Assembly: GCF_009811795.1 (NCBI RefSeq)
Contig: NZ_BLJE01000010.1
Location: forward strand, 1 to 35,362
Direction: 5' to 3'
Length of the DNA: 35,362 nucleotides
Origin: Litoreibacter roseus
GTDB taxonomy: Bacteria > Pseudomonadota > Alphaproteobacteria > Rhodobacterales > Rhodobacteraceae
A model generated the notes under the pieces. That model ran no database searches, was not told the origin of the DNA, and was given only the letters and a program-made list of their open reading frames with translations. Positions within the stretch are counted from its first letter, which is position 1. Each line of letters begins with the position of its first letter. Made by a program: the position numbers and the translations under genes. Shown here piece after piece: positions 16,402 to 35,212 of the stretch.

Positions 16402-17168
16402 GGCTTCATCGACAGAAACAGGTTGGCTGATGACGCCTTCATGACAGCGTGGGCCGTGGTTGTGCTGTTGAGCGCGGCACGGGCGAGGCGGAGATGCTTT
16501 TCCACCGTGGCCCGGGTCAACCCCATGATCTGTGCCATCTCGTCCCCTGTCTTGCCTTGTGCTGCCCATTGCAGCACCTCCTGCTGGCGCTGGCTTAACC
16601 GGTGGATCAGGCCGGATTTGTGAGGTAGGCGGCTGACCTGCAGATGCATGAGATAACTGCTGAGTTCGATGAACGCATGATGTGCGGCCCAGATCTGCTC
16701 CACATCGTCTTGCGAAAGTCCACGGCGCGCGGCGAGGCCGATTGCCGCCTTTGTGGTATCCGTCCCGCTGTGGAAGCTGATGGTGTAGCCCGCGGTCACC
16801 GCAAAGCGTTGATTGATCTGGATCACCTCCAACTCATCCGCGGACAGGGTCTGTGCCTCTGCCATCTGCGCGATCATGCGCCAACTGCAAGTTCCCTCAT
16901 TCTCTGAGGCCCAGCGGGTCATCGGTCCGTGCAGATACATTCGTTTGCCAACGAAATATTCCATGTAATCCGGGCTGTGATTGCTGAGAACGAGTGCGTC
17001 GTTCACCTCTCCGACGCCGATATTCCGACCGTGGATCGGGAATCGCGTGAAACCGTAGACCATCCGATCAAAGCCAAGCGCACGCATCGCGCGGCCATGT
17101 GTCGACCAGACTGTTTCGATGTCCTTGGACTTGGCCATCGGCAGGAGCGTGTCGTCCAACGAAAACAT
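16398..17168 (-). CDS. LuxR-family regulator (solo) with divergent signal pocket
   Basis: This 256-residue protein has an N-terminal autoinducer-binding-like domain (about 20-175) and a C-terminal LuxR HTH (about 188-250: LSQRQQEVLQWAAQGKTGDE, then GLTRATVEKHLRLARAAL). In the pocket, the usual W..Y..DP..W pattern reads Tyr68, Gly81-Pro82 and Trp96. The Trp and the Asp that normally contact the acyl-homoserine lactone are therefore changed, so the ligand may not be a standard AHL. The start at 17168 follows a GGTAG-type site. A lux-box-like palindrome lies about 155 bp upstream. It overlaps the desaturase start by 4 bp. No luxI is in the window. Confidence 0.87.
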   Translation of the reverse strand: MFSLDDTLLPMAKSKDIETVWSTHGRAMRALGFDRMVYGFTRFPIHGRNIGVGEVNDALVLSNHSPDYMEYFVGKRMYLHGPMTRWASENEGTCSWRMIAQMAEAQTLSADELEVIQINQRFAVTAGYTISFHSGTDTTKAAIGLAARRGLSQDDVEQIWAAHHAFIELSSYLMHLQVSRLPHKSGLIHRLSQRQQEVLQWAAQGKTGDEMAQIMGLTRATVEKHLRLARAALNSTTTAHAVMKASSANLFLSMKP

Positions 17169-17324
17169 GGTTGGTCTACCTTTGTCCGAAAGAGGCGCCG
17201 AGGGTGGACGATCGCGCAGCGACACCGGTGGATGGCGCAATTGCGGTCGGAGAATTCTCAAGATGATCCGTCATGGCCGCATGAAAGACTTGGGAACTCC
17301 GCCATGGCGAGTGCCGAAATCCAG

Positions 17325-17477: not shown

Positions 17478-18113
17478 TCAAATGTATCCCCGCCGGATCG
17501 CAAGGGCGACCGCTTCGATCGTTGTTCGGACCTGCAGCCTTCGCCGCGCGCTTTCGATCCGTTTCTTGACCGCCGGAACCGATAGTTGGATCTGAGCAGC
17601 TACGTCTTCAATACTATGCCCCTCGGACAGGTGCTTCAGAACGATCGTTTCCTTCTCTGTAATGGCTGGAACCTCAAACAGCGCAGTGCTCCATGCTCTG
17701 AAAATCTTGTCCAGGCGACCAATCTCGTGATCATGTAGTTGGCGGTCCGGTCTGGCAACGGACAGGATCGATTTGTGACCGTTGATCGTGGCGGCGAGAA
17801 TTCCACCATAGACAAGGCCATGCTCACGCGCCGTGCGGAGAACATTATCCAGATCTGGGAAGGTCACGTCGGACCACCGTTTTCTGCCGTCATTGCCGAG
17901 CGCCCAGATCATCAGGGGGTCAGAGCTTGCGTAGTTTTTAGCCATGTACAAATTCTGCCACCGCTCGGGGAACGTTGTCGTGGCAAAGTCGGCACCCAAG
18001 GTAGACATATTAAATGCAAGAAAAAAACCGGACCGGGCAACTGCATCGATTTCCTGGAGACCCGTTTCGACGTCCGGAAGATCCAGATGGCGAATATCCT
18101 GTGTTTCGAGCAT
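17478..18113 (-). CDS. LuxR-family regulator (solo) with canonical AHL motifs
   Basis: This 211-residue protein has an N-terminal autoinducer-binding domain with the expected residues: Trp52, Tyr56, Asp65-Pro66 and Trp80 (RWQNLY, YASSDPLMIW, RKRW). The C-terminal HTH (about 150-208: ITEKETIVLKHLSEGHSIED, then LSVPAVKKRIESARRRL) ends with RRGYI. The start at 18113 is preceded by AGGAG; an upstream extension to 18293 is not family-like. It is on the same strand as the second luxR, with the palindrome between them. With no luxI present it is a solo that could sense signals made elsewhere in the genome or by neighbours. Confidence 0.88.
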   Translation of the reverse strand: MLETQDIRHLDLPDVETGLQEIDAVARSGFFLAFNMSTLGADFATTTFPERWQNLYMAKNYASSDPLMIWALGNDGRKRWSDVTFPDLDNVLRTAREHGLVYGGILAATINGHKSILSVARPDRQLHDHEIGRLDKIFRAWSTALFEVPAITEKETIVLKHLSEGHSIEDVAAQIQLSVPAVKKRIESARRRLQVRTTIEAVALAIRRGYI

Positions 18114-18517
18114 GCTATATCTCCTGACCTCTTCAGTGAAAACAATAGAGATACGCCGCTGAACCACCAGCACCGTTCCAAGGGTGGAGGTTTTGGCTCT
18201 GCCTGTTTGTTTTGAAAGGTAGATTTGAGCGTGTTTAAGGCTGGGGCGATGACATGATGAGCGTAGTTCGGCAAAGAGGTTGCGACCAATCAACAGCGTT
18301 CAACGCAACAGTCTCGTTGGCATAACAACTAAGGCTACCCGTCATCTTGCCGAAGATTACCACGTCAGTCAGACCGACTGTGAAACTGCACAGCGATCGT
18401 AGAAACACGGTACATCTGCCGACGAACACGGAGTGGATGCCGAATTATGCGCATGAACCATACGTATAATTGACGGGCATTCTGTTCCGCGATATTCTCA
18501 TTGTAGGAGGCTAGGCC
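18114..18517. other. Divergent region between luxR2 and ccdA
   Basis: No gene is supported in this 404-bp stretch. It contains the upstream region of luxR2 on the minus strand and, at its right end, the ccdAB promoter and ribosome-binding site. Short antisense frames here do not look coding. Confidence 0.5.
18470..18498 (+). promoter_or_regulatory. Sigma-70 promoter of ccdAB
   Basis: A -35 box TTGACG (18470-18475) and a -10 box TATTCT (18493-18498) are separated by exactly 17 bp. AGGAGG follows at 18505-18510, 7 bp before the ccdA ATG, so the leader is very short. The palindrome ATACGTAT at 18460-18467 abuts the -35 box and could be part of the autoregulatory operator. Confidence 0.65.
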
Positions 18518-22121: not shown

Positions 22122-22158
22122 CCTTGCAAAACTTCCATATTATGGAATAAATGCAAGG
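22122..22158. promoter_or_regulatory. 37-bp interrupted palindrome over the start of the DUF4143 gene
   Basis: CCTTGCA (22122-22128) and TTCCATA (22133-22139) are mirrored exactly by TATGGAA (22141-22147) and TGCAAGG (22152-22158) about a central T at 22140, with 4-nt spacers on both sides. The first ATG (22151) lies inside it. It could be an operator, or an RNA hairpin that hides the start codon. Confidence 0.6.
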
Positions 22159-23329
22159 TATGATCGAGCGTAGTCACAGACAAAAGGTCGAAGAGGCCTT
22201 GGACGCTCAGGCAGGGGTCGTCCTGCTTGGTCCGAGACAAGTTGGCAAAACGACCTTGGCCCAAGATATTGCGGAAAGCCGGGATGCTGTCTATCTCGAC
22301 ATGGAGCGGGTGGCAGATCGTCAGATCTTGGAGGAGCCGGATCTCTATCTCGATGAGCAGATGGGGCGGCTTGTCGTGATCGATGAAATCCAGCTTATGC
22401 CAGACCTGTTCAAAACCTTGCGCGGTCAAGTAGATCGGCGCCGGAGGGCAGGGCACCGGACCGGGCAATTCCTGTTATTGGGGTCGGCGTCAAACACGCT
22501 GCTGCATCAAAGCGCTGAATCCCTCGCCGGACGGGTGAGCTATCACGAACTGACTCCCTTCCTGATATCGGAAGTCAGCGTCGACGAAATGTCGACGCTT
22601 TGGCTGCGGGGTGGCTTTCCTGACAGCTTTCTTGCAAAGACGGATCGGGCCAGCCTGTCCTGGCGAGAGGACTTCATTCGAACCTATCTGGAACGTGATA
22701 TCCCGTCCTTCGCCTTGCGCATTCCGGCTGAGACGCTGCGCCGTTTCTGGACAATGCTGGCCCATGAGCAGGGTGGTCTTCTCAACGCAGCGAAGCTGGC
22801 GGGGAATCTCGGTGTCTCGGGGCAAAGCGTTGCACGTTACCTCGACCTGCTGGTTGATCTTATGTTGGTGCGGCGGCTTCCGCCTTGGCATGCAAATGCG
22901 GGCAAGCGGCTGGTGAAGTCACCGAAGATCTATATTCGGGATTCAGGGATGGCCCACGCCCTGCTCGGTATTGAGAGTGCCGAAGCTCTCTTAGGACATC
23001 CTGTCATTGGGGGAAGCTGGGAAGGGTTTTGTATCGAGAACCTCATTGCCGCCGCACCGCGTGGGACTGAGGCCAGTTTCTATCGTTCTTCAGCTGGGGC
23101 TGAGATAGACCTTCTGCTGAAACTTCCCGGCGGTCCGCTTTGGGCGATTGAGATCAAGCGGACGACGTCGCCGAAGGTCACGCGGGGGTTCCACATGGCA
23201 GCTCAAGAACTGCGCGCGACCGAGCGCATCCTTGTTTATGCCGGAGAGAGGGAAGTTCCCGGCTCGAACGGCTTGCGGGCGATGTCCTTGAAAGACGCGA
23301 TAGAGCGATTGGTTTCCGCTGAGAAATAG
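22151..23329 (+). CDS. AAA-family ATPase with DUF4143 domain
   Basis: This 392-residue protein belongs to the large AAA_14/DUF4143 family of unknown function common on mobile DNA. The N-terminal ATPase has Walker A GPRQVGKT at 27-34, Walker B RLVVIDEIQ at 73-81 and a sensor-like LLLGSASNTLL. The middle part (YLERDIPSFALRIPAETLRR, then AKLAGNLGVSGQSVARYLD) includes a winged-helix-like segment. The C-terminus has a PD-(D/E)XK-like nuclease core with GAEIDLLLKL and WAIEIKRT, so DNA cleavage is possible. The start may be the ATG at 22151 or at 22160. The palindrome across the start suggests autoregulation. Antitoxin, defence or transfer roles have all been suggested for such proteins; none is shown here. 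Confidence 0.88.
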   Translation: MQGMIERSHRQKVEEALDAQAGVVLLGPRQVGKTTLAQDIAESRDAVYLDMERVADRQILEEPDLYLDEQMGRLVVIDEIQLMPDLFKTLRGQVDRRRRAGHRTGQFLLLGSASNTLLHQSAESLAGRVSYHELTPFLISEVSVDEMSTLWLRGGFPDSFLAKTDRASLSWREDFIRTYLERDIPSFALRIPAETLRRFWTMLAHEQGGLLNAAKLAGNLGVSGQSVARYLDLLVDLMLVRRLPPWHANAGKRLVKSPKIYIRDSGMAHALLGIESAEALLGHPVIGGSWEGFCIENLIAAAPRGTEASFYRSSAGAEIDLLLKLPGGPLWAIEIKRTTSPKVTRGFHMAAQELRATERILVYAGEREVPGSNGLRAMSLKDAIERLVSAEK

Positions 23330-23696: not shown

Positions 23697-24896
23697 ATGA
23701 TGAAAGACATAGAAGAACCAAGTCTGAGGACAGAACGACTCAAGCTCATTGATGAAGTTTTTGATCTCATTTCAGCCAAGAAAGACGATCTGGCCAATAT
23801 TCTTGGACGACTAAACGGCCCGAAGGCGACCAAGCACGAAATCGATGCATCCCTCGATGCGATTTTGACAGTCCGGGCAGAAATCTCAAGAACGAGTCCG
23901 AGTTTCATAAATAGATTCGGCGTGTTTCATTCGCCAAATGCAATTCTGTATGAATACGTGCTTCATTGCGTGATACCGTGCCTCTATTCGCGGCATGTCT
24001 ATATCCGACCCGCCAGCAAGAGCCTTATCGATACCGTCCGTCTTCACGATTTTCTCACCAAAGCCGTCGCGCTGCCGATCGAGATTTGCCCGGTCTCGCA
24101 GACGAAGTATTGCGACATCCTAAGCGGATCGGAAGCCGTCATATTCACCGGCCGCTACGAAAATGCCGTCGAGTTGTCCCGGCATCTGAACGTGCAGCTC
24201 TTCATGTTCGCGGGCGCGGGGTCGAACCCATTCATCGTGGGGCCGGGATGTGACAAGGTCGGCATCGTGGACAAGTTCGTAAATGCGAGGCTGCTCAACG
24301 CCGGTCAGGATTGTGTCTGCCCGAATGCGATGTTCGTTTCAGCGGCTGAAAGCGAAGCCTGGACGTCTCAATTCGCCCTTTCTCTGTCCGAACTGGATGA
24401 TCACGACCGCTTCCCCACCGCAGAGGTCAGCCCGCTTCTGGATCCCGACCAAGTCCGCACGATTATGGAGAGGATGCTCGCAAATCGCGACGACATCTTC
24501 CACGGGGGACATGTCGATCTTACCTCGTTGGCCATGCAGCCGATTGCGCTTTACCAGCATATTGGCCGCGCGATGCAACCGGAAGAGTGGTTCGGTCCGG
24601 TTTGCCTACTGATCGGCTATGACACGATCGACCAGGTGTCCGAAATGCTGCTGCGCCCAGAGCTGCGCGACTCCGCGATGTACCTGTCGACCTTCGGTGA
24701 CGTCGATCTTAGCCCTAAGGTGTCGGCCCGCTACATAGATATCGGCCCGGTCAGCGTGCTCGAAACAGAAGGCGGCAACGAACCGTTCGGCGGCTACGGC
24801 GAGAAAGCCAGCTTCGTCGAGTTCAACGGAACGCGCGTGTCCCGGCCAATCCTCATCTCACAAGAGATCGCAGAGGCGTTCGGCTGCGCATTATAG
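23697..24896 (+). CDS. Aldehyde dehydrogenase-like protein lacking the general-base Glu
   Basis: This 399-residue protein has an ALDH fold signature but is shorter than usual (about 480-500), mainly at the N-terminus. The cofactor-binding part includes VYIRPASKSLIDTV. The catalytic nucleophile is Cys206 in LLNAGQDCVCPNAMF. The segment that normally reads ELGGKNP is AGAGSNPFIVG (172-182), so the conserved general-base Glu is missing. The C-terminal EWFGPVCLL and NEPFGGYGEKAS motifs are kept. ALDHs without this Glu include CoA-acylating or reductive types, so it may form a thioester or reduce an activated acid rather than oxidise an aldehyde to a free acid. It is the first gene of the operon. 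The start is one of two adjacent ATGs. Confidence 0.8.
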   Translation: MMKDIEEPSLRTERLKLIDEVFDLISAKKDDLANILGRLNGPKATKHEIDASLDAILTVRAEISRTSPSFINRFGVFHSPNAILYEYVLHCVIPCLYSRHVYIRPASKSLIDTVRLHDFLTKAVALPIEICPVSQTKYCDILSGSEAVIFTGRYENAVELSRHLNVQLFMFAGAGSNPFIVGPGCDKVGIVDKFVNARLLNAGQDCVCPNAMFVSAAESEAWTSQFALSLSELDDHDRFPTAEVSPLLDPDQVRTIMERMLANRDDIFHGGHVDLTSLAMQPIALYQHIGRAMQPEEWFGPVCLLIGYDTIDQVSEMLLRPELRDSAMYLSTFGDVDLSPKVSARYIDIGPVSVLETEGGNEPFGGYGEKASFVEFNGTRVSRPILISQEIAEAFGCAL

Positions 24897-24963
24897 AGCG
24901 CCTTTTTTCAGGTTTTCCTCGGCGGGCATTGCGCGACAGTATCTCAGACACGGAGGCATCAAG

Positions 24964-25956
24964 ATGAATCAGAACAAAGAAATTGAGCCGTCCTTGGACA
25001 AAGTCGACCCGATCTCCGAAGTTCGCAGAAAATACCCAGTTCTCCTTCCTGGGACGCTCAAGAGACGGATCGAACAGGGCACCTATTCCGAACGTGCTGC
25101 ACGCCAGTATCAGCCGCAGGCCCAGGAGTTGTTGAACTCGAACCAGCTGTCTGCGGATCCGTGCAACGAAGGCGACTACCGCGTCACCGAGAACCTGATA
25201 AAGAAATACCACAACCGCGCGGCCCTGATCGTCACACATCGCTGCATAGCCTACTGCCGCTTCTGTTTTCGGAAGGATTTTGTCGGGCAGTCGTCGCAGG
25301 CAATCAATCCCGCTGGCCTTGAGCACAGCATCAGTGAGATCGAGAAAGACGTCACGATCTCCGACGTCCTTGTCTCGGGCGGTGATCCCCTTGCGATCCC
25401 TAACAAAGAACTACTGCCGATCCTTTCGCGGCTCTCGCAGGTCGACCACATCAAGAGCATTCGCATTCACACACGCGGAGCGTCCCTGACGCCGCATCGG
25501 ATCAATGATCGCTTGCTGGAGTACCTGAGCACCGACCGTAAGATCTGGTTCTACACGCATATGAACCACATCGATGATCTGCGCGATCCGGATGTGGAGG
25601 ATGCGCTCTACCGGATTTCCCGGACAGGAACGCCGCTTCTCAATCAGGCTGTCCTGCTGGGCGGGGTCAACGATACGGTCGCCGATATCCATGACTTGCT
25701 ACTGGGCTGCTACGAGCGACGAATCGTTCCCTATCACCTCTATTCCTTCGATCCAGTTCAGGGTGCAGGCCACTTCTCGGTCGACCCCGACGTGTCACTG
25801 GAAATTTTCACCTCCCTCGCCGGGCTTCCGGGGCCGGCACAGCCCGTTTTCGTCGTCGTCGACGAAAAGAATAGCAAACGGCGGTTTGTCTTCGATCCGT
25901 CCTCCGGCACCGACACCTTGAAAGACCTGCTTATGTCGAGGCACCCAAATGCTTGA
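24964..25956 (+). CDS. KamA-family radical SAM enzyme (lysine 2,3-aminomutase-like)
   Basis: Enzymes of this family use a [4Fe-4S] cluster, SAM and PLP to move an alpha-amino group to the beta carbon of lysine or a related amino acid. The 330-residue protein has the cluster motif with Cys94, Cys98 and Cys101 (CIAYCRFC), SGGDPL at 138-143, and the carboxylate residues that bind the side-chain amine of lysine in clostridial lysine aminomutase: Asp237 (GGVND) and Asp300 (FVVVD). The PLP-binding Lys would normally lie 7 residues after the second Asp (DAPGGGGK); here the sequence is DEKNSKRRF, with Lys302 and Lys305 as candidates, so the site is altered. The tail is short. A good GGAGG site precedes the ATG. 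Its stop overlaps the aminotransferase start by 8 bp. The substrate is probably a basic amino acid. Confidence 0.88.
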   Translation: MNQNKEIEPSLDKVDPISEVRRKYPVLLPGTLKRRIEQGTYSERAARQYQPQAQELLNSNQLSADPCNEGDYRVTENLIKKYHNRAALIVTHRCIAYCRFCFRKDFVGQSSQAINPAGLEHSISEIEKDVTISDVLVSGGDPLAIPNKELLPILSRLSQVDHIKSIRIHTRGASLTPHRINDRLLEYLSTDRKIWFYTHMNHIDDLRDPDVEDALYRISRTGTPLLNQAVLLGGVNDTVADIHDLLLGCYERRIVPYHLYSFDPVQGAGHFSVDPDVSLEIFTSLAGLPGPAQPVFVVVDEKNSKRRFVFDPSSGTDTLKDLLMSRHPNA

Positions 25957-27319
25957 CAAGAGCGCGTCCGGACCTTCCAGCCAACTCTCAGGGTTTTCGC
26001 AACGCGGGTGGTTGCATTCCTACCAGATGAGCCGGTTCGGCGACGTCCCCTTCCTGCCTACGGCACTTTCAAAGGCCGAGGGATGCCGCGTCCGCGACGT
26101 TGACGGTACCTGGTATCTCGACGCGTTGTCGGGCGCCTATTGCGTCAATATTGGCTATGGGCGCCAGTCGGTGCTCGATGCCGCCTCAGAGGCTGCATCA
26201 AGCATCCACTATGTTTCGCCGTTCTCGTGCACCAGTCCTCAAGCAGCGGCGTATTCGAAGGCTCTGACGGATGCGCTGGATGGGTTCATGGGGCCTGAAT
26301 CGCGCATATTCTTTGTGAACAGCGGTTCCGAGGCGATCGATGCGGCGATCAAACTCGCCCGTGCCTGGCACTTCGTGAAAGGAACCGGCCACAAGACCAT
26401 CCTGTCACGGCGCGGGTCCTATCACGGCTCGACATTCGGTGCGGCAACGGTCTCGGACAGCGAATTCCTCAAGCAGGTATTCGGTCCGATGATGGGCGGC
26501 GCGGCCAAGTTCCCCACGTCCTCCTGCCATATCTGCGAATTCGACGAAACGCCGGACAGGTGCGGGGTGAACTGCCTCGGGATCGATGCGCCTGACCCGG
26601 CCGCACTTCTGGTCGAGGCGGTCGAGACGTGCGTTGGAACGGGTCTGACGCATCGGGACTATTATCGCCGGCTGCGGCGCATTGCCGATGATCTTGGCGC
26701 ACTCCTGATCTGTGACGAAGTCATCACCGGTTTTGGCCGAACGGGCGCTCTGTTTGCATGCGAGAAGCTCAACATTCGCCCGGATGTTCTGGTCCTGGCG
26801 AAAGGAATTACCTCGGGCTATGAGGCGATGGGGGCCATTGTCGTCCGCCGGGAGGTCGCAGATGCGTTCCTCGGCGACGACAGCAAGACTTTCTTCCATG
26901 GAGCCACATTCGGCGCGCGTCCTGGCCCGGCGGCGGCTGCGCTGGCAAGCCTCGACATTCTGCTGGACGAGGCTCTGCCTCAGGCTGCCGCCCGGTCTGA
27001 GGCCATCATCCGGTGCCAGATCGAAGCAAAGCTCACATCACGCCCCTCGATCCGTGCCTTCCGCGGGACCGGGATGCTGTTCTCGGTCGATGTCGACTTT
27101 CACGAAGGTCCCGCGCGGGTCCACGATATCGAGTTACTTCGGCAATGCATCTTCGAACAAGGGATCATCAATTGCCTCTACTCGACCAAAGACGATGGCT
27201 TTGTCGACATTGCGCCGCCCCTGATCTGCTCAGAAGGGGATCTTGAGGAACTGGTCGAGGGAATATCAAAGGGTTTTGACAAATGGGAAAACCAGCGCGC
27301 CAAGGGTGACAGCGCATGA
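25949..27319 (+). CDS. Class III PLP aminotransferase
   Basis: This 456-residue enzyme transfers amino groups, usually to or from an omega-amino group or an aldehyde. Landmarks are NSGSEA at 124-129 (phosphate binding), YHG at 158-160, CDEVITGFGRTG with Asp256 binding the PLP ring nitrogen, and the Schiff-base Lys285 in LVLAKGITSGY. A cysteine cluster (CHICEFDETPDRCGVNC, 193-209) lies where related 4-aminobutyrate-type enzymes carry a metal or Fe-S site. It overlaps the radical SAM gene by 8 bp and the ATP-grasp gene by 4 bp. It may act on the terminal amine of the aminomutase product or on an aldehyde made or used by the first gene. Confidence 0.92.
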   Translation: MLDKSASGPSSQLSGFSQRGWLHSYQMSRFGDVPFLPTALSKAEGCRVRDVDGTWYLDALSGAYCVNIGYGRQSVLDAASEAASSIHYVSPFSCTSPQAAAYSKALTDALDGFMGPESRIFFVNSGSEAIDAAIKLARAWHFVKGTGHKTILSRRGSYHGSTFGAATVSDSEFLKQVFGPMMGGAAKFPTSSCHICEFDETPDRCGVNCLGIDAPDPAALLVEAVETCVGTGLTHRDYYRRLRRIADDLGALLICDEVITGFGRTGALFACEKLNIRPDVLVLAKGITSGYEAMGAIVVRREVADAFLGDDSKTFFHGATFGARPGPAAAALASLDILLDEALPQAAARSEAIIRCQIEAKLTSRPSIRAFRGTGMLFSVDVDFHEGPARVHDIELLRQCIFEQGIINCLYSTKDDGFVDIAPPLICSEGDLEELVEGISKGFDKWENQRAKGDSA

Positions 27320-28377
27320 CGCGACGTGCGGTACTGATAACGAGCGTTACGGACGAGCAGGGGCGGAGATACGGCTTTGCCGAGAATGAGCTTGGCGAGT
27401 TCGACAAGGTAGAAGACCTCGATGTCCTGTTCGACTTGGTTGAGAAGGCCGGCTTCCAGCCAATCTTCGCGGGTCACGGAAGGGACTTGGCCACGGCACT
27501 GATCGAGCATACGCCCTGTCTCGTGTGGAACCTCAACCAGGGGCTCTACGGACGCGCGCGCGAGGCAGAGGCGCCAGCTCTGTGCGAAATGCTCGGCTTC
27601 GAACTGCTTGGTTCTGGGTCCTGGACGGCCATGCTCACGCAGGACAAGCTCGCCGCGACCCTGCTTGTCGAAAAGGCGGGTATCGCAGGGCTTGCGGTGC
27701 CCCGGACGATTGCGATCGACGAGCCCGGACATCTGGGCCAGGTCGACGCCCTGAGCGCCGAGATCCGCTGGTTCATCAAACCGCGCTTCGAGGGAAGTAG
27801 CCGGGGCATCGACAATCAGGCCATGCACGCCGATGGCAAGGCTCTGAAGGCTCGCGCGGGGGAGGTCCTAGACCGATGGGGTCCTGTGTTGATCCAGGAC
27901 TTCATCGACGGGATCGACATCTCGGCAAATGCGCTCACTGATGACCTCGGCGTCCTGACACCGCTGGCTCCCATAGTGATCGACACGGAAACCGGATTCG
28001 ACTGTATCGACATGAAGGCGGATTACACGAATCTCCGCCGTCGCCAATTGCCCCTGAGCGAACTTCATCCCGAACATATTCCGGCAGTCAAACGCATCAT
28101 ATCCGATCTGTCCCGCCTCTTTCACGCGCGGGACTATTTCAGAACCGACCTCCGGCTCGACCCGCGCACAGGAAGAATAGTTTTCCTCGAAGCGAACCTG
28201 ACACCGACATTCGCCGATCATGACGAATTCATCTTGGGCGCTAAGCTGGACGGACAAAGCCTCGACGACGTTGTGAAATGCATTCTCGGCGCCGGAGATA
28301 GGCGATTACAGGCCCGCAAGAAGAAATCCACAAAAAATCCGCCAATCGAACACCGGAGTATTCAGAATGCTCATTGA
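27316..28377 (+). CDS. ATP-grasp ligase, D-Ala-D-Ala ligase-like
   Basis: This 353-residue enzyme belongs to the Ddl-type ATP-grasp family, which activates a carboxylate as acyl phosphate and joins it to an amine. The N-terminal domain has LVWNLNQGLYG (69-79), equivalent to the substrate loop FNxxEG of Ddl. The ATP-binding part has WFIKPRFEGSSRG (152-164), the Ddl KPxxEGSSxG loop, and IQDFIDGIDIS. The Mg site is in FRTDLRLDP and LEANLTPTF (291-299). In this context it most likely makes a peptide or amide bond between amino acids rather than cell-wall D-Ala-D-Ala. It begins with an ATGA overlap and its end overlaps the JmjC gene by 11 bp. The start fits the family. Confidence 0.9.
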   Translation: MTRRAVLITSVTDEQGRRYGFAENELGEFDKVEDLDVLFDLVEKAGFQPIFAGHGRDLATALIEHTPCLVWNLNQGLYGRAREAEAPALCEMLGFELLGSGSWTAMLTQDKLAATLLVEKAGIAGLAVPRTIAIDEPGHLGQVDALSAEIRWFIKPRFEGSSRGIDNQAMHADGKALKARAGEVLDRWGPVLIQDFIDGIDISANALTDDLGVLTPLAPIVIDTETGFDCIDMKADYTNLRRRQLPLSELHPEHIPAVKRIISDLSRLFHARDYFRTDLRLDPRTGRIVFLEANLTPTFADHDEFILGAKLDGQSLDDVVKCILGAGDRRLQARKKKSTKNPPIEHRSIQNAH

Positions 28378-29182
28378 GCGCGGCGATATTGCCCAATACC
28401 GATCCATTCAGGACCTCAAGTCCAGTGGGAACCTTCGCAAACCCGGCATCATTTCGGCCAGTGAAGAGTCCTATAAGTTCTTCGACGACTTCAAATTCGA
28501 GCGACTGTCATCGCTCCACGGCAAGGATGTCCGAATGGAGCAGAACAATTTCCTCCATACCAACCCCACGTTCTCGATGGTTCCGATCGAGGAATACATT
28601 TCGGCGATCTCCAAGGGAGAGACGTTCGAGAAGGACGGGCGGGAATACTACCTGAGTGTCTACAACATCTTCAAAGACTTCCCGCATCTCGTGCCGGACG
28701 ACATGGTGCAGGACGTTCGCAAATTGAAAGGTCTTGTCGAGCCACTTTGCTGGATCGGGCCGAAAGGGACCGTGACCGGTCTTCATGCGGATTGGCCAGA
28801 CAACTTCCTCTGCCAAATCCAGGGCAGAAAGCGGGTCATGCTGATTGCGCCCGAGACGGCTCGAGAGATGAAGCGTTCGGATCGTTTCGATCCCGAAACC
28901 ACCGTGTATGATTACGATATCGATACGGTCGACGACCCCCGGATGCCGAAACAGTTCTGGGATGCTGCGACCATCCTGGTGATCGAGGAAGGGGATATCC
29001 TCTATATCCCGCAAAACTGGGTCCATTGGGTCGCTGGTCTGTCGCCGACCGTTTCGATCAACCTTTTCTTCCAGACTCCGATCGAGCGCATGCGGTTCCG
29101 GGCCATCGAAGTGCTGCAGAGACTCTCGTCGGCTCTGGGCGTTGCGTACCGCGAGAACACGCACAAGGCAAAGCAGGTCTGA
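28367..29182 (+). CDS. JmjC/cupin-type Fe(II), 2-oxoglutarate oxygenase
   Basis: This 271-residue protein has the cupin_8/JmjC core. The iron-binding triad is His140 and Asp142 (TGLHADWPDNFL) and His220 (YIPQNWVHWVAGL). The QIQGRKRVMLI strand supplies the basic residue that usually binds 2-oxoglutarate, and EEGDILYIP is the family's conserved turn. Such enzymes hydroxylate amino-acid side chains, in free or protein form. In this operon hydroxylation of the basic amino acid or its peptide is the natural guess. The 5' end overlaps the ATP-grasp gene by 11 bp. All metal ligands are present, so it should be active. Confidence 0.9.
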   Translation: MLIERGDIAQYRSIQDLKSSGNLRKPGIISASEESYKFFDDFKFERLSSLHGKDVRMEQNNFLHTNPTFSMVPIEEYISAISKGETFEKDGREYYLSVYNIFKDFPHLVPDDMVQDVRKLKGLVEPLCWIGPKGTVTGLHADWPDNFLCQIQGRKRVMLIAPETAREMKRSDRFDPETTVYDYDIDTVDDPRMPKQFWDAATILVIEEGDILYIPQNWVHWVAGLSPTVSINLFFQTPIERMRFRAIEVLQRLSSALGVAYRENTHKAKQV

Positions 29183-29185
29183 CCG

Positions 29186-30055
29186 GTGACACAGACCCTC
29201 AATGAACTGCTCGCCCACGAGCTGTCCGAACGTGGTTTCAAACCCAGGAATGGCGCGATCCTGCCGACCCATTTGATTGAAAGGCTGAAAATCCGCGACG
29301 TCACCCTGGCTCCATTCTCCGCAAGTACCTCGCAGCTCTGGGCGAAACTCACCGATGATGAAGATACCGCGCTGTTCCTGAAACTGGCGGTCCGGCGGCT
29401 GACCAACCCGTTTTCTGCCGAGCGCGACCGGCTGATCTGGATCGGAAGGTTCTTCGATGCGCCGGAAGTCGTCGATTACTGGGCCGGCGAAGAGCATGAG
29501 GTGATCGTCACGACATGGCGCACCGGCAAGACCGTCAAGGACTGCGTTCTGGAGGGTGCGGACGCCGAAGGGGCAATCAGGCGGGCAGGGCGGTTTCTGC
29601 GGGAATTGCACGCATCACCTGCCGTGAGCGCGTGTCCCTTCCATCGCGATCTCCCGGTTCTGCATGCGGATGCGACCTTGTTGCTCGACATGGAGCGGCC
29701 CTGGGAAGGTGCGGTGCCTTCCGAGTTCGAGGAGACATTCGGTAAATCGCCGGCAGAATATCTCGCGCCGCTCTTGGCCGATTTCCCCGAGAATGATCGG
29801 ACAACGCTCGTCCACGGCGAGGCTAATCTAGCGAACTTTCTGATCGGGGACGATGGCGGGTTCAGTGTGCTGGATACCGGCCGTCTCGGCCGCGGCGACC
29901 GGCACCTCGATCTGGGGCTAGCTATCTGGGAAATGGAGGTGATGTCTGTGCCACACCTCGTCGCACCGTTTCTCGACGAATATGACCGTGACGCCATCGA
30001 TGACAACCGTCTCGAGTATTTCCGGCGACTGGCAGGGTACTTTTGGCACACATGA
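29186..30055 (+). CDS. APH/choline-kinase-like phosphotransferase with HGE motif
   Basis: This 289-residue protein has the aminoglycoside-phosphotransferase fold: a small N-lobe with ALFLKLAVRR (Lys66 as ATP-binding residue), then TLVHGEANLANFLIGD (207-222) and FSVLDTGRLGRGDRHLDLGL (226-245). In active kinases the first motif is HGDxxxxN; here the catalytic Asp is Glu212, with Asn217 kept. The second Mg ligand Asp230 is present. It may be a weakly active or altered kinase. Possible roles are phosphorylating the product as self-protection or a biosynthetic intermediate. The start is a GTG 3 bp after the JmjC stop, and its end overlaps the transporter start as ATGA. Confidence 0.85.
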   Translation: MTQTLNELLAHELSERGFKPRNGAILPTHLIERLKIRDVTLAPFSASTSQLWAKLTDDEDTALFLKLAVRRLTNPFSAERDRLIWIGRFFDAPEVVDYWAGEEHEVIVTTWRTGKTVKDCVLEGADAEGAIRRAGRFLRELHASPAVSACPFHRDLPVLHADATLLLDMERPWEGAVPSEFEETFGKSPAEYLAPLLADFPENDRTTLVHGEANLANFLIGDDGGFSVLDTGRLGRGDRHLDLGLAIWEMEVMSVPHLVAPFLDEYDRDAIDDNRLEYFRRLAGYFWHT

Positions 30056-31230
30056 GTGGTTTGTCGGTCATCAAACCAGTCGCGTTGATGCTGTCTGGAT
30101 CCTTCCGGGCCTTCCAGAACGCATTCATCCTGCCGTTCGTTTCCTGGCAGGTTTACCTGTCGTCGGATAGTGTTGCCGCGGTTGCCTACACGATCGCGCT
30201 CGGGCAACTTGTGATCCTTATAACAAGCCGTCTGACCAAACGGCTGATCAGGCCCGATCATGCCGCATCGATTGTCGCGGCCTTCGATCTATTCCGATTT
30301 CTGGTGCTGGTGGTCTACAGCGTCCTGCCGAGAGAACTGCAGATCATGGCTCTGCCGGTGGTCTTTTGCGTGAACACCGGCTTCTATGTGCCGATCTCGG
30401 TGTCGATGAAGGTGTTAAGCAAGATGGACGTTCTGGACAAGCACCTGCATTTGTTCAATGTGCTCCTTGGAAATCTGCGCATTGCCGCCATGCTGATCGG
30501 TGGCCTGTCCGCTGGCCTGGTCATCGCGCATCTGGGCGCTTTTGGGCAGTCCCTGACTGTCGCCACGATCGGTCTTCTGCCGCTGCTCTGCTCAGCGGTC
30601 TATATCTACCTCGCCCGCGGGACCGGGGGCATACCCGCCAACGCCGCGCTGACCGTGTCCGCAGACTTCAGTCTCGCCAAGCTCAAGCCCCATCTGCGGC
30701 TGCTGCTCATCTGGGTCCTGATCGCCGACAGCTTCATCATCCTGTTCGATGTGTACTTCCCGGTCTTCGCCGACCGGGTCTTCGCAGGGGACACGAGGCT
30801 TTTTGGCCTTGCGGACTTCTCCGTCGGGATCGGCGGGATCATCGGCGGGCATGTCGGGTGGCTCTTCATCAAGTATCTGAATCAGCGGACCCTCGGACTG
30901 ATGGTTGTCGCGTTTCTCGCCGTCTTCTTTGCGCTGAAATTTGTGACCTTTCCGATCACGTTCATCGTTGCCGTCGCCCTGATCGGCCTTACCTACGAGG
31001 TGTCGGTCGTTCTCCTGTCTCAGATCCAAAAGGAGACCCCCCGAGAACATCAGGCAGCGATGCATTCGACCTTCTACACAATCAATTCGCTGATGGTGAT
31101 CGCATTGGTCCTGCTCAATCAGCTTGCTGGCGTCACCGCGTCAGCGCTCATCGTGTTCGGCATCGTGCTGGTTCTTGGAACCATGACCGTCATGCGCCCC
31201 CGTCAGGCCACTTTCGAGAGGGCTCCCTGA
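30052..31230 (+). CDS. MFS transporter, probable product exporter
   Basis: This 392-residue protein has about 10-12 hydrophobic segments and short charged loops typical of the major facilitator superfamily, including a first loop with SRLTKRLIRPDH and a central break near residue 190. Examples of membrane segments are AAVAYTIALGQLVILI, LFRFLVLVVYSVL, LLLIWVLIADSFIILF and LMVVAFLAVFFALKFV. An in-frame TTG at 30043 is possible, but the ATG at 30052 overlaps the kinase stop as ATGA and is preferred. In the middle of a biosynthetic operon the most likely job is efflux of the product, though uptake of a precursor cannot be excluded. Confidence 0.87.
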   Translation: MSGLSVIKPVALMLSGSFRAFQNAFILPFVSWQVYLSSDSVAAVAYTIALGQLVILITSRLTKRLIRPDHAASIVAAFDLFRFLVLVVYSVLPRELQIMALPVVFCVNTGFYVPISVSMKVLSKMDVLDKHLHLFNVLLGNLRIAAMLIGGLSAGLVIAHLGAFGQSLTVATIGLLPLLCSAVYIYLARGTGGIPANAALTVSADFSLAKLKPHLRLLLIWVLIADSFIILFDVYFPVFADRVFAGDTRLFGLADFSVGIGGIIGGHVGWLFIKYLNQRTLGLMVVAFLAVFFALKFVTFPITFIVAVALIGLTYEVSVVLLSQIQKETPREHQAAMHSTFYTINSLMVIALVLLNQLAGVTASALIVFGIVLVLGTMTVMRPRQATFERAP

Positions 31231-32186
31231 TGGGCACAGGCACATCGATCAATCACGGGCTCGACATGGTGTTCTCGAACACCAAGCCAGCTGATGCGAC
31301 ACCCGAGGCGATATCGGGCGAGCTGCAGGATGGCATTGCCATCGTCGGTCTCCCTTTCGACGGAGGGTCGAGCTATCACCCCGGCAGCAGGTTCGCCCCT
31401 AATGTCATCCGCGAGGCAGGCCGACAGGTGTTTTCGCATCCGGTCTGGCCCTTTGGTTTTGATCCGAAAATGGTCCAGACGGTCGTCGATACCGGAGATG
31501 TTCTTTATCCCTACTGGAAGCCGCAGACCTTCCCCGCCTGCGTCCGGGAGCACGTCGACCACTGGATGGGCTCGAAGATGCGTGTGCTGGCCTTCGGCGG
31601 TGATCACTCGGTTACGGTCCCGATGATTCAGTCCTTTCTCGATTGCAACCCAGGCGGCAAGCTCCTCGTCCTCGACGCCCATTGCGACGTTGCGGACTTC
31701 GACCCAGGTGACATCAACCACGGCAGCGTACTGTCCGAGCTTCTCGCGGACGGCGCTCTGCAGGACACGGACCTGATCCATGTCGGGATGCGTACCGGCG
31801 CTCGGTCTGATTTGCCCGCCGCATCCCATGTCTTCTCAATGGATGAGATCGACCAGGACCACTGCTCGATCGAGCGTCTTGCCGCGAAAATCAAAGAGAT
31901 CGCTGGAAGGGCACCGCTTTATATTTCGCTGGATCTCGACGTCTTCGACCCCGCATTCGCGCCGGGCGTCTCGACCTATGCGACAGGCGGGCTCACCTCT
32001 CGGGCCGGGCTCGATCTCTTGCGCGGGCTTGCCGGCTGCAACCTGCGAGCCATGGACATCGTCGAACTCTGTCCGCCTCGCGATCCAGGCGGCGTTACCG
32101 CATCGCTTGCCGCGATGCTGGGCGCATACTTCATGTGCATTTCCTCGAAGCACTTCAACCAAATGAGCAGGACAGATGAACGCTGA
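31230..32186 (+). CDS. Arginase/agmatinase-family ureohydrolase
   Basis: Family members use two Mn ions to remove urea (or a similar group) from guanidino compounds. The 318-residue protein keeps the full metal set: His126 (FGGDHSVTV), Asp149, His151 and Asp153 (LDAHCDVADF), and Asp235 and Asp237 (SLDLDVFDPAFAPG). INHGS lies in the substrate loop. It is full length. The ATG at 31230 shares one base with the transporter stop; a much longer open frame starting at 30366 runs out of frame through the transporter and is not real. It could convert an arginine-derived or guanidino intermediate to the amine, or remove a protecting group late in the pathway. Confidence 0.92.
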   Translation: MGTGTSINHGLDMVFSNTKPADATPEAISGELQDGIAIVGLPFDGGSSYHPGSRFAPNVIREAGRQVFSHPVWPFGFDPKMVQTVVDTGDVLYPYWKPQTFPACVREHVDHWMGSKMRVLAFGGDHSVTVPMIQSFLDCNPGGKLLVLDAHCDVADFDPGDINHGSVLSELLADGALQDTDLIHVGMRTGARSDLPAASHVFSMDEIDQDHCSIERLAAKIKEIAGRAPLYISLDLDVFDPAFAPGVSTYATGGLTSRAGLDLLRGLAGCNLRAMDIVELCPPRDPGGVTASLAAMLGAYFMCISSKHFNQMSRTDER

Positions 32187-33033
32187 CCACAAACCGACCG
32201 CTCAGGAAATCAAGGCGCTCAGCGCCAAGAACAATATGAGGGGCATCGCCGCACTCGCGAGGGACTGGCTCTTGATCGGTCTGGCGATCGTGCTTGCCGA
32301 AACGCTGGACAGCCCCCTTGCGACGCTGGTCGCGATCTGGATCATCGGCAGTCAGCAATATGCCCTGGGGGAGGTGCTCGTCCACGAAGCGTCGCATGCG
32401 AACCTGTTCAGGACCCGCGGTCTGAATTGGTGGCTGCAACCCCTCTTCGCCTGGCCGTTCTTCAAGACGGTCGATGGCTACCGCAAGTGGCACCTGCCGC
32501 ATCACACGCAGTTCGGCACCGAGGGGGATCCGATCGTTCCCCGGTATAAGGAGTTGCGGCAGAATTTCACCACAGCCAAGGCGTTTCGAATCTGGTTCAT
32601 TGAACCTTTACTCGGGCCGGCCGCCTGGCGCTACGTCTCCGAGGATATCTTCGATGAGGAGTTGAAGGTGTTGCTGCCGGGACTGGTCATGAACGGCGCC
32701 GCGCTTGCCCTGTCTATTGTCTTCGGCGTCTGGCCCGAATTTCTGATCTATTGGATCCTTCCCCATCTGTGGGTCTTCGTCGCCTTCTATCACTGGCAGG
32801 AGATCGAGGATCATTTCGCCTGCAACGGCACGGGCAGAAATACGATCGGGGCGGTTCGCAGCGTGCTGTTTCACAACTCCGGCCATCACGAGACGCATCA
32901 TCAGTTTCCTAGCATACCGTTCTACAACCTACCCTCGGCCCGACACATGACTGACCCGCAACGGACCTGCACCAGCACGGGCTTTTGGGAAAGCTACCGG
33001 CAGCTTTTAGACTTTGCCCGGAGGCCTACATAG
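32176..33033 (+). CDS. Membrane fatty-acid-desaturase-like di-iron oxygenase
   Basis: This 285-residue integral membrane protein has three His boxes: HEASH at 70-74, HLPHH at 106-110 and HHETHH at 237-242. Hydrophobic segments lie around residues 32-60, 85-97, 165-187 and 188-205. The motifs match the short fatty-acid desaturase superfamily (FADS/sphingolipid desaturase-like), which also includes hydroxylases and enzymes acting on small molecules. It differs from the other desaturase in the window (354 residues, different His-box spacing). It overlaps the ureohydrolase by 11 bp. It may act on the pathway intermediate or on a lipid part of the product. Confidence 0.9.
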   Translation: MNADHKPTAQEIKALSAKNNMRGIAALARDWLLIGLAIVLAETLDSPLATLVAIWIIGSQQYALGEVLVHEASHANLFRTRGLNWWLQPLFAWPFFKTVDGYRKWHLPHHTQFGTEGDPIVPRYKELRQNFTTAKAFRIWFIEPLLGPAAWRYVSEDIFDEELKVLLPGLVMNGAALALSIVFGVWPEFLIYWILPHLWVFVAFYHWQEIEDHFACNGTGRNTIGAVRSVLFHNSGHHETHHQFPSIPFYNLPSARHMTDPQRTCTSTGFWESYRQLLDFARRPT

Positions 33034-33076
33034 CGTAATTAGCCACAGTTTTGCACAGAACAACACTTCGGACGCC

Positions 33077-33952
33077 ATGCGCAAAGACAAGGACGCGATC
33101 TATCGATTGCAATTGCCGATCGACGACGAGATCTCCGCGGATGTTCTTGGCGACTGTCTCTGGGTCAATATCGGCGACACGTTCAAGGGCGGATTGGAGG
33201 CGGCCCAAGCCGCTGCGATCGAGCTTGCAGATATCCATGGGTGCCGCCACTGGCTGGTCAATCGCCGCGTGAACCGCGGAAGTGATCCGCTCGAGAAGAA
33301 GCGGGTCTGCAGCCCGGATTTCCCGGATACTTGGACCGCGCGCGAGAATGGAGCCACTTTTCTGCTCAAACGCGACGAAGGGGTCGCCAGCGGCTTCTTC
33401 ACCGATCAGTCCGCCACGCGCTTGCGGGTCGCCGATCTGAGCAACGGTGCCCGCACGCTGAACCTTTTTTCGTACACCTGTAGTTTTAGCGTCGCCTCCG
33501 CACTTGGCGGGGCCGCCGAAGTGACAAGCGTTGATGTCAGCAAGAAATACCTCGAATGGGGCCGCCAGAATTTCGAGATCAATGGCCGGGAGCCCGATGA
33601 CCACACCTTCTGGAGCGGAGATGCGCGCACGTTTCTGAGACTGGCTAAGAAACAGGGGCGTCAGTTCGATATGGTAATCCTCGATCCGCCAAGCTTCTCA
33701 CGCTCGAAAGGCAATGCCTTCCGGCTTGCGCGCGAATATCCGTCGCTGGTCCGCGATTGCCTCACGGTCGCGGCGCCTGGGGGGCGTGTCCTTCTCATCG
33801 TCAACTTATCGTCCTGGTCCGTGAACACGCTCAAAATGATCGTTGGATCCGAAGCCCGAGAGATTGGGCGCTCCTACGAGCTCGAGTTCGCCAGTGATCC
33901 GGACCCCAGTACGACGGCCAAATCGATCATGGTAAGGAAAGCGCCGGGGTAG
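33077..33952 (+). CDS. RlmI-like class I SAM methyltransferase
   Basis: This 291-residue protein resembles the RlmI/RlmK group of 23S rRNA methyltransferases. The middle SGFFTDQSATRLRV matches their substrate-domain to catalytic-domain joint. The Rossmann part has LNLFSYTCSFSVASALGGA (SAM-binding motif I), VTSVDVSKKYLEWGRQN, and the catalytic DMVILDPPSFSRSKG (DPPSF). The N-terminal PUA-like domain of full RlmI is shortened. The frame is also open upstream to a TTG at 33014, but the ATG at 33077 is preferred. It lies 43 bp after the desaturase and ends the operon. It might methylate the natural product, or the ribosome as self-protection. Confidence 0.85.
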   Translation: MRKDKDAIYRLQLPIDDEISADVLGDCLWVNIGDTFKGGLEAAQAAAIELADIHGCRHWLVNRRVNRGSDPLEKKRVCSPDFPDTWTARENGATFLLKRDEGVASGFFTDQSATRLRVADLSNGARTLNLFSYTCSFSVASALGGAAEVTSVDVSKKYLEWGRQNFEINGREPDDHTFWSGDARTFLRLAKKQGRQFDMVILDPPSFSRSKGNAFRLAREYPSLVRDCLTVAAPGGRVLLIVNLSSWSVNTLKMIVGSEAREIGRSYELEFASDPDPSTTAKSIMVRKAPG

Positions 33953-34156: not shown

Positions 34157-35212
34157 CGCTCATCGTAATTCCTCCATCATCTTTTCGCGAAAGACTTCGG
34201 CAGGCGTCTTCCACCCTAGGCACTTACGGGGCGTGTTGTTGAGGCGATCGCAGATCACCTTCATATCGTGATCTGTGCATCGGCGGATGTCCCGCTTGCA
34301 CGGCAACCATCTTCTGAGCCTGCGATTGGTGTTCTCGACTGTACCTTTTTGCCAAGGTGAGGAGGGATCACAGAACCAGGTCTGGGTGCCGATCTCGGCC
34401 TGCAAGTGCGGCCAGCCGACAAACTCTGTCCCGCGATCAAACGTGATCGACTTGCGTGCCGAGAGGGGCAGGTCGCGGATGGCCTCCATGATCTTGCCCA
34501 TGACAGGTTTGGTGCGCTTGTTTGGGTTCTTCAGGATGACTGTGAACCTGCTGACACGCTCGACCAGTGAGGTCACATTGGTCTGGCCAAGCTTTTGTTT
34601 GAACAGCATCAAATCGGCTTCCCAATGACCGAACTGGCGACGGTGCGCGACATCATCAGGGCGGAATAGGATGCTCACATCACGATGGAACTTTGGTTCT
34701 CTGCGCCTTCTGGTGCGACGCGGCCTGCGGGCGACACGATGCGTGGGAAGATACCACCAGAGATCATCGCGCTGACCTTCTTTGGAATAAATATAGCGGT
34801 AGATCGTCTCTTGGCAGACCCTTGGCATCGCGCCTTCATGGATCATACGATTGCCGATCTGCTCGGGCGTCCAGCCGTTTTTGATCCGCTTGATCACCCG
34901 ACTGCGCAGTTTGGGATATTTGATCAGTTTTCGCTGCCGGGCCCGCCGATCTGCCGCCATCAGCTGAGCGGCTGCGCCGTAGTAGCCATCACACTTTGGC
35001 ATGCATTCATCAGAGAAATGATTGCGTTTCAGCTCTCGGAAAATCGTCGAACGACAGCGTTTCAATACACGCGCCATCTCATCAACAGGGACCTTTGCAT
35101 GTCTCCAGCGTTCAATTTTGCGTCGTTCTGTGATACTCAGTTGGCTATAGACAGCTCCCATCCCGATTCCTCGCGTCAGATAACATACTGTTTTCTAAAA
35201 AGAGTCGCAGTT
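34126..35212 (-). mobile_element. IS30-family insertion sequence
   Basis: Inverted ends GCGACTCTT.TTAG (left, from 34130) and their complement CTAAAAAGAGTCGC (right, ending 35208) flank one intact IS30-type transposase gene. The outer limits are uncertain by a few bases. The length is about 1.08 kb, normal for the family. Target-site duplications were not resolved. Confidence 0.75.
34160..35161 (-). CDS. IS30-family transposase
   Basis: This 333-residue DDE transposase has an N-terminal HTH (SQLSITERRKIERWRHAKVP, then CRSTIFRELKRNHF) and a second HTH-like part (GWTPEQIGNRMIHEG), as in IS30. The catalytic residues are Asp in FGHWEADLMLF, Asp in SITFDRGTEFVGW and Glu in PWQKGTVENTNRRLR. The C-terminal NNTPRKCLGWKTPAEVF is the family's signature ending. 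The reading frame is complete, so the element may be mobile. Confidence 0.95.
   Translation of the reverse strand: MGAVYSQLSITERRKIERWRHAKVPVDEMARVLKRCRSTIFRELKRNHFSDECMPKCDGYYGAAAQLMAADRRARQRKLIKYPKLRSRVIKRIKNGWTPEQIGNRMIHEGAMPRVCQETIYRYIYSKEGQRDDLWWYLPTHRVARRPRRTRRRREPKFHRDVSILFRPDDVAHRRQFGHWEADLMLFKQKLGQTNVTSLVERVSRFTVILKNPNKRTKPVMGKIMEAIRDLPLSARKSITFDRGTEFVGWPHLQAEIGTQTWFCDPSSPWQKGTVENTNRRLRRWLPCKRDIRRCTDHDMKVICDRLNNTPRKCLGWKTPAEVFREKMMEELR

Follow-up and report, generated by a model that had tools for sequence, protein, structure and literature searches.

What is made by ten closely packed genes on a plasmid-type contig of Litoreibacter roseus? The window analysed here is this entire contig (NZ_BLJE01000010.1; 35,362 bases), which also carries VirB-type conjugation genes, and the genes in question occupy positions 23697-33952 on its plus strand. 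We put forward that all ten constitute one operon for the biosynthesis of a small, self-protected natural product without nonribosomal peptide synthetases (NRPS) or polyketide synthases (PKS), and assign a probability of roughly 0.55 to this interpretation. It is based on the tight spacing of the genes, their coding signal, the protein families encoded and sequence motifs that are mostly intact. An original prediction on this DNA had already proposed a tight operon of biosynthetic type with enzymes for basic amino acids and an ATP-grasp ligase and with neither NRPS nor PKS, and this proposal is supported.

The ten genes span 10.3 kb, are co-oriented and mostly overlap. When ATG 30052 is taken as the start of the gene for the probable major facilitator superfamily (MFS) exporter and ATG 33077 as that of the methyltransferase gene, the successive spacings are +67, -8, -4, -11, +3, -4, -1, -11 and +43 bp. 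The coordinates, the strand, the overlaps (8, 4, 11, 4, 1 and 11 bp) and the gaps (3, 43 and 67 bp) predicted earlier thus match to the base. The GC content of the third codon position exceeds that of the first, and that of the first exceeds that of the second, in all ten frames, a pattern that fits coding DNA. Neither promoter-like sites (4 versus 2.7 expected) nor terminator-like sites (10 versus 9.3 expected) exceed the level of shuffled sequences. The weak points of the unit are the 67-bp gap 3' of the first gene and the 43-bp gap 5' of the last. Nine of the ten proteins are assigned to Pfam families, namely Aldedh, Radical_SAM, Aminotran_3, Dala_Dala_lig_C, Cupin_8/JmjC_2, APH, Arginase, FA_desaturase and Methyltrans_SAM, and neither Pfam nor NCBIfam reveals any NRPS or PKS domain among the ten. 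The catalytic residues checked are kept in most of the proteins; they depart from expectation or are ambiguous in the first protein, in the kinase and for the pyridoxal phosphate (PLP) lysine of the aminomutase-like protein.

The core of the proposed pathway consists of a KamA-family radical S-adenosylmethionine (SAM) aminomutase-like protein of 330 amino acids (24964..25956, plus strand) and a ligase. The former contains the CxxxCxxC cluster motif as CIAYCRFC at residue 94, with all three cysteines invariant in 11 sequences, and matches lysine 2,3-aminomutase in the PDB (2a5h) with E=2.3e-37 over an alignment of 255 residues. Its top NCBIfam score is obtained with EpmB (TIGR03821; 207.2 bits, below the cut-off of 369.3), and the model for the arginine 2,3-aminomutase BlsG (TIGR04468) yields 175.6 bits, below the cut-off of 600. 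Judged by its sequence, the protein is a divergent relative of the KamA family rather than a filed member. In the alignment, R103 and D263 correspond to Arg134 and Asp293 of lysine 2,3-aminomutase, residues that, in our understanding, bind the substrate in that enzyme, the former at its carboxylate and the latter at its side-chain amine. These correspondences fit a basic substrate. A further aspartate, D300, is located close to the second amine-binding position.

The ligase (353 amino acids; 27316..28377, plus strand) belongs to the ATP-grasp enzymes with D-Ala-D-Ala ligase (Ddl) fold, as indicated by a match to Pfam Dala_Dala_lig_C, by its residues and by a predicted model (predicted local distance difference test, pLDDT, 82) that resembles Ddl structures at a template modelling (TM) score of about 0.7. 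Residues K111, K155, D278, E292 and N294 are invariant across 13 sequences and are presumably those expected of a Ddl-type ligase. The score against the D-Ala-D-Ala ligase model TIGR01205 amounts to 54 bits and stays below the cut-off of 245.65.

Two oxygenases are encoded in the operon. One has a fatty-acid-desaturase (FADS) fold and is GntB-like (285 amino acids; 32176..33033, plus strand). GntB, named L-arginine gamma hydroxylase by NCBIfam, provides its best curated match (NF041365; 109.4 bits, below the cut-off of 380), and the histidine boxes HEASH, HLPHH, EIEDH and HETHH are all kept. This match fits hydroxylation of arginine or lysine. GntB is described as a transmembrane enzyme and makes the linear precursor that GntC cyclises (PMC10367076). 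The other oxygenase is of the JmjC/Cupin_8 type (271 amino acids; 28367..29182, plus strand; Cupin_8, 105 bits); it keeps the HxD motif (HAD at 140) and the distal histidine (H220), and its nearest solved structures are those of JMJD5. Its structure matches also include C2orf60, which we take to be TYW5.

An agmatinase-like ureohydrolase of 318 amino acids (31230..32186, plus strand; Pfam Arginase, 210 bits) contains the metal-ligand motifs GGDHS, DLDVFDP and DAHCD. The nearest PDB entries are agmatinases, guanidinobutyrase and proclavaminate amidinohydrolase, and the agmatinase model TIGR01230 is matched with 149.4 bits (cut-off 174.3). The class III PLP-dependent aminotransferase (456 amino acids; 25949..27319, plus strand) is recognized by Pfam Aminotran_3 with 246 bits and has the lysine motif AKGI at 284.

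The remaining four members are less firmly assigned. The first gene (23697..24896, plus strand) encodes a short and divergent protein of the aldehyde dehydrogenase (ALDH) superfamily with 399 amino acids, which matches Pfam Aldedh with 57.6 bits over residues 146-367 only and retains the GQxC cysteine as well as the EWFGPV and PFGG motifs. It could act as a reductase on an activated acyl group or could be non-catalytic. An APH(3')-like kinase of 289 amino acids (29186..30055, plus strand) scores 65 bits with Pfam APH and 119.7 bits with the APH_3p model, the latter below the cut-off of 205. The hydrophobic membrane protein encoded at 30052..31230 (plus strand) is a probable MFS-type exporter, in which simple hydropathy analysis finds nine hydrophobic segments; since it matches no Pfam or NCBIfam family at E 0.001 and its naming relies on this hydrophobic profile, the MFS assignment is the one of the ten predicted families that stands as probable, and the other nine are borne out by Pfam. 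Finally, a class I SAM methyltransferase of the RlmK/RlmI type (291 amino acids; 33077..33952, plus strand) is detected by Methyltrans_SAM with 99 bits. Its top curated score is that with the RlmKL model (134.9 bits, in the RlmK part) versus 92 bits with RlmI, and two 5-methylcytosine (m5C) families score 101 and 92 bits. Neither DPPSF (at 203) nor VNLSSW contains a cysteine, which argues against an m5C enzyme under the cysteine motif rule that we assume to apply to these two motifs.

Substrate, order of steps, coupling partner and product are what we infer. The KamA-like protein would convert arginine or lysine to the beta-amino isomer, and the FADS enzyme, perhaps together with the JmjC protein, would hydroxylate the amino acid. 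A guanidino group, if the compound is derived from arginine, would be converted to an amine by the ureohydrolase with release of urea, and the aminotransferase and the ALDH-like protein could adjust the resulting amine or its neighbour. The ATP-grasp enzyme would then activate a carboxylate as acyl phosphate and form an amide with a partner, and the exporter-like protein would carry the product out of the cell. Kinase and methyltransferase would most likely shield the producer, the latter perhaps via methylation of 23S rRNA; if so, the product would be a translation inhibitor. Such an inhibitor is also our best guess, because three genes look protective and two of them resemble determinants of resistance to ribosome-targeting drugs (APH and rRNA methyltransferase). 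Basic beta-amino acids occur in the translation-inhibiting drugs blasticidin S, negamycin, viomycin and streptothricin. Self-resistance conferred by an rRNA methyltransferase from within its own cluster has recently been described for ManE (PMC13372681). Taken to its most specific form, the proposal is a tentative one: a pseudo-dipeptide antibiotic of a new class, consisting of a hydroxylated beta-amino acid that aminomutase, desaturase-fold hydroxylase and ureohydrolase derive from arginine and that the ATP-grasp ligase joins, might inhibit translation, while kinase, exporter and an RlmK-like 23S methyltransferase with a new target would protect the producer.

Does the same set of genes exist elsewhere? 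The searches comprised 1962 genome look-ups at the levels of phylum, class, order, family and genus of the organism, in samples that overlap. Nine of the ten proteins were also compared with 72,556 plasmids, and two, the FADS and the ATP-grasp protein, with a collection of 84,980 species, the ATP-grasp protein by means of six patterns of eight residues that find close relatives only. For the aminotransferase, the ureohydrolase, the kinase and the MFS protein the search was confined to plasmids (at most 12 of up to 1870 records listed), and the genome search for the ALDH-like protein comprised 21 genomes. For each protein the best relative among the matches listed shows about 40% identity or lower. 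The ATP-grasp protein is matched in 114 of 289 genomes of the class at E 1e-3, its own included, and the others reach at most 34% among the matches listed; the pattern scan of the species collection returned no close relative among 52 pattern matches. Relatives of the KamA-like protein occur in 29 of 295 genomes of the family (E 1e-30) and in two of 21 genomes of the genus, the own genome being counted in both cases; the best other one has 37% identity, or 39% over 227 residues by tblastn, and a scan of viral contigs yielded none. The FADS protein is found in seven of 292 genomes of the order (1e-15, own included) and, beyond its own genome, in none of 299 genomes of the phylum at 1e-20; the best 80 of its 232 relatives in the species collection have 23-36% identity. 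The JmjC protein is matched in two of 270 genomes of the class, own included, and in none of 275 genomes of the family beyond its own. No match beyond the own genome was obtained for the methyltransferase in 198 genomes at 1e-25, nor any for the MFS protein in plasmids by tblastn. Among the titles and abstract openings listed in searches of the open-licence PubMed Central literature, no description of the ten-gene set was recognized.

In the gene neighbourhoods of the relatives, no examined locus contains more than three of the ten genes. A conserved neighbourhood of the whole set, which the original prediction had named as its test, is not corroborated, and relatives are scattered in the way it had named as refutation. 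As no close relative of any gene was found, this scattering is as good an argument for a rare cluster as for a false one. The link between KamA and ATP-grasp recurs. In 17 of 29 alphaproteobacterial ATP-grasp loci a KamA gene adjoins the Ddl-like ATP-grasp gene, and in eight there is a second ATP-grasp match; identities to the window's proteins are 22-32% for ATP-grasp and 31-38% for KamA. Twenty larger ATP-grasp loci, of which 17 include KamA, contained none of the other eight operon genes at E 1e-3. In eight loci (L002, L004, L007, L009, L012, L013, L016 and L017) an alphaproteobacterial KamA gene is accompanied by two ATP-grasp genes, and in four others (L161, L166, L170 and L172) the ATP-grasp genes have a neighbour that encodes about 160 amino acids. 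The neighbourhood with KamA and two ATP-grasp genes looks like a separate amide-forming pathway. On a Thioflavicoccus plasmid (L031, 6691-12172), genes for KamA, ATP-grasp, ornithine-cyclodeaminase-like, SbnA and diaminobutyrate transaminase proteins lie together; besides KamA and ATP-grasp, this locus offers an aminotransferase relative of 26% identity to that of the window. The group is probably a pathway for a diaminopropionate-containing amide.

Starting from KamA, 20 loci of the own family were found to contain at E 1e-3, apart from arginase-family genes, only one kind of operon gene, ATP-grasp, in three loci. A weak ALDH match (L055; 24% at E 8e-4) fell below the limit in a second scan. 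The FADS neighbourhoods comprised 94 loci, that is six from the order search with 1.5-kb flanks, eight plasmid stretches and 80 loci of the species collection. At E 1e-4, one or more of the remaining nine genes turned up in only two of them: L077, selected because of its KamA, and L112 with an aminotransferase of 28% identity. Among L070, L071, L074 and L075, FADS relatives adjoin LysE or DMT transporter genes on Staphylococcus and Salmonella plasmids and, in Pseudosulfitobacter, genes for an AzlCD transporter, a proline dehydrogenase and an aminotransferase. These surroundings suggest stand-alone systems for amino-acid hydroxylation.

Several findings weigh against a single biosynthetic operon with intact enzymes. 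The KamA-like protein misses the general KamA model TIGR00238 (183.7 bits, cut-off 199.2), and the column of the PLP lysine is occupied by R307, K305 fitting only via a gap of two residues. In an alignment of the first protein with 13 ALDHs, PWNFP has lost its asparagine and ELGG its glutamate, presumably the oxyanion asparagine and the general base, and the predicted model of the protein is unusable (pLDDT 44). The kinase has glutamate in place of the catalytic aspartate (HGEANLAN at 210, HGE instead of HGD, which we take to be the usual catalytic motif of APH enzymes), and its activity is therefore only putative. The substrate of the methyltransferase could be the product and not rRNA. The ligase, whose coupling partner is only postulated, shares no BLAST similarity with that of the blasticidin S-type cluster considered below, a profile comparison giving 73% probability over 103 columns. 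A second copy of the operon was not found in the genomes, plasmids and loci searched. The apparent uniqueness of the operon is the main reason for interest and for doubt alike.

Among other explanations, the one that survives best, although we consider it unlikely, is a division into two or three units, with an operon reaching from the KamA to the FADS gene, an unrelated ALDH gene upstream and an unrelated methyltransferase gene downstream. It is exactly these two genes that are set apart by the widest spacings, 67 and 43 bp. On the other hand, all ten share one strand and a similar base composition, the terminator-like sites do not exceed expectation, and close relatives were found neither of the ALDH-like protein (21 genomes) nor of the methyltransferase (198 genomes).

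It is less probable that the genes serve the catabolism or salvage of an unusual guanidino or beta-amino acid, the substrate being isomerised by KamA. Ureohydrolase, aminotransferase and ALDH would form a classic route from an agmatine-like compound to an acid; the ureohydrolase is indeed nearest to agmatinase and guanidinobutyrase, and the class III aminotransferase and ALDH families agree with this route. Moreover, four of the 20 family KamA loci have an arginase-family gene: in L048, L050 and L062 a RocF-type arginase gene is no more than about 2 kb away from an AblA-like KamA gene, and in L043 an agmatinase gene is about 11 kb away from KamA. The RocF-arginase/KamA loci are the nearest approach to a link between KamA and a ureohydrolase elsewhere and may be catabolic; the meeting of KamA with a true arginase in these three loci shows that such enzymes can also come together in what may be arginine catabolism, which counts against biosynthesis. 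In all three, however, the arginase gene is on the opposite strand, and the subfamilies differ from those of the window (arginase, not agmatinase-like; AblA_like_2, not EpmB-like). The family KamA loci contain no other operon genes except the ATP-grasp genes mentioned above. It is not evident what an ATP-grasp enzyme, two oxygenases, an APH-like kinase and an RlmK-like methyltransferase would do in such a catabolic route, and the ALDH-like protein lacks residues which, in our understanding of their roles, are needed for ordinary aldehyde oxidation. A known catabolic operon spanning most of the ten genes, which according to the original prediction would speak against it, was not found.

Least probable is a modification of the translation machinery, in which EpmB-like aminomutase, ATP-grasp enzyme, JmjC protein and RlmK-like methyltransferase would act on a ribosomal protein, a factor or RNA: the best NCBIfam score of KamA with EpmB, the JmjC protein's proximity to JMJD5 with C2orf60 among its matches and the methyltransferase's proximity to RlmK fit this idea, but Pfam reveals no gene for EpmA-like proteins or elongation factor P among the ten, the ATP-grasp fold is nearest Ddl, ureohydrolase, GntB-like hydroxylase, kinase and exporter-like protein suggest a small molecule, and the set is rare and plasmid-borne.

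The closest counterparts of the VirB-type conjugation genes are on plasmids of Dinoroseobacter shibae (74.5% identity over 30% of 22 kb). On the operon side, the only near plasmid matches listed concern the end with the IS30 element (Sulfitobacter and others). An AAA/DUF4143 ATPase gene (22151-23329, plus strand) directly precedes the operon with a gap of 367 bp. An IS30-type transposase gene (34160-35161, minus strand; Pfam HTH_38 and rve; IS30 matches in Sulfitobacter plasmids) follows near the contig end at 35362 and is outside the pathway. The last 133 bases of the contig (35230-35362) recur with 99% identity at the end of another contig of the same genome (C6), which indicates an assembly break at a repeat just past the insertion sequence (IS) element, the sequence continuing elsewhere. 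Two adjacent genes for LuxR-type autoinducer-binding regulators lie at 16398-17261 and 17478-18293 (both minus strand). No autoinducer synthase was recognized among the nearby open reading frames scanned, and either the conjugation genes or the operon might be under the control of this pair. A second desaturase-family protein (15337-16569, minus strand), related to the DesA Delta(5) desaturase (291.7 bits, cut-off 500), differs in type from the FADS enzyme of the operon.

If biosynthesis by a single operon is correct, ten genes within 10.3 kb on a plasmid-type contig, for which no close relatives were found in the collections searched, would provide a compact route to a probably bioactive amide. 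Much cluster detection relies on NRPS and PKS genes. The few known aminomutase/ATP-grasp antibiotics would gain an arginine-derived branch trimmed by a ureohydrolase, and an rRNA methyltransferase that protects the producer would directly indicate the site of the drug on the ribosome. Even with a trivial product, the operon would be a useful case of ATP-grasp natural-product logic outside Actinobacteria.

How does the operon compare with known systems? By the order of functions, its nearest parallel is a blasticidin S-type (bls) cluster on a plasmid of Kitasatospora sp. NBC_00039, in which the genes for the aminomutase BlsG, an aminotransferase, an ATP-dependent carboxylate-amine ligase and an MFS protein are consecutive and are followed by one unassigned gene and a methyltransferase gene. 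The likeness is one of logic, not of shown ancestry, and as such it favours the biosynthetic interpretation, as does that to negamycin. The aminotransferase there belongs to the DegT type whereas that of the window is of class III, the two methyltransferases share no convincing BLAST similarity, and the cytosylglucuronate genes of the blasticidin-type cluster have no equivalent among the ten according to Pfam and NCBIfam. The window, in turn, adds ureohydrolase, FADS, JmjC, APH and ALDH proteins. The negamycin (neg) cluster of Kitasatospora purpeofusca is described as combining beta-lysine formation, lysine hydroxylation, N-methylation and an ATP-grasp enzyme (PMC12154649), and by this description it would resemble the window in these four functions. 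The hydrazine-forming enzyme NegJ belongs to neg, and none of the ten proteins is assigned to that kind; in a check for NegJ/KinJ, nine of them belong to different families in Pfam, the tenth being the hydrophobic protein. In the Pbo cluster of Pseudomonas syringae pv. phaseolicola, the KamA-like pboF is placed beside the ATP-grasp gene pboG together with genes for a 2-oxoglutarate-dependent oxygenase and MFS proteins (PMC8473136). As described there, Pbo has NRPS and PKS domains in contrast to the window's ten genes, and the available portion of its gene table lists no ureohydrolase, desaturase or APH. With the guanitoxin enzyme GntB the window's FADS protein has the family and the histidine boxes in common, while the other guanitoxin families are not represented in the NCBIfam matches listed for the ten.

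Proclavaminate amidinohydrolase of clavam biosynthesis is a ureohydrolase that takes off an amidino group within a biosynthetic pathway. Its structure 1gq6 matches the window's ureohydrolase, agmatinases scoring better, and beta-lactam families are absent from the NCBIfam matches listed for the ten. The operon is outside both the blasticidin-type and the Pbo clusters, as the defining genes of neither are among the ten. The earlier statement that no characterised pathway has this combination holds for the full set, which matched none of the systems compared. It does not hold for the KamA/ATP-grasp core, which is known and not of an unrecognised type, since it recurs in blasticidin-type, Pbo and apparently negamycin clusters as well as in many Alphaproteobacteria. 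The operon is best filed as an aminomutase/ATP-grasp pathway whose set of tailoring enzymes is unusual.

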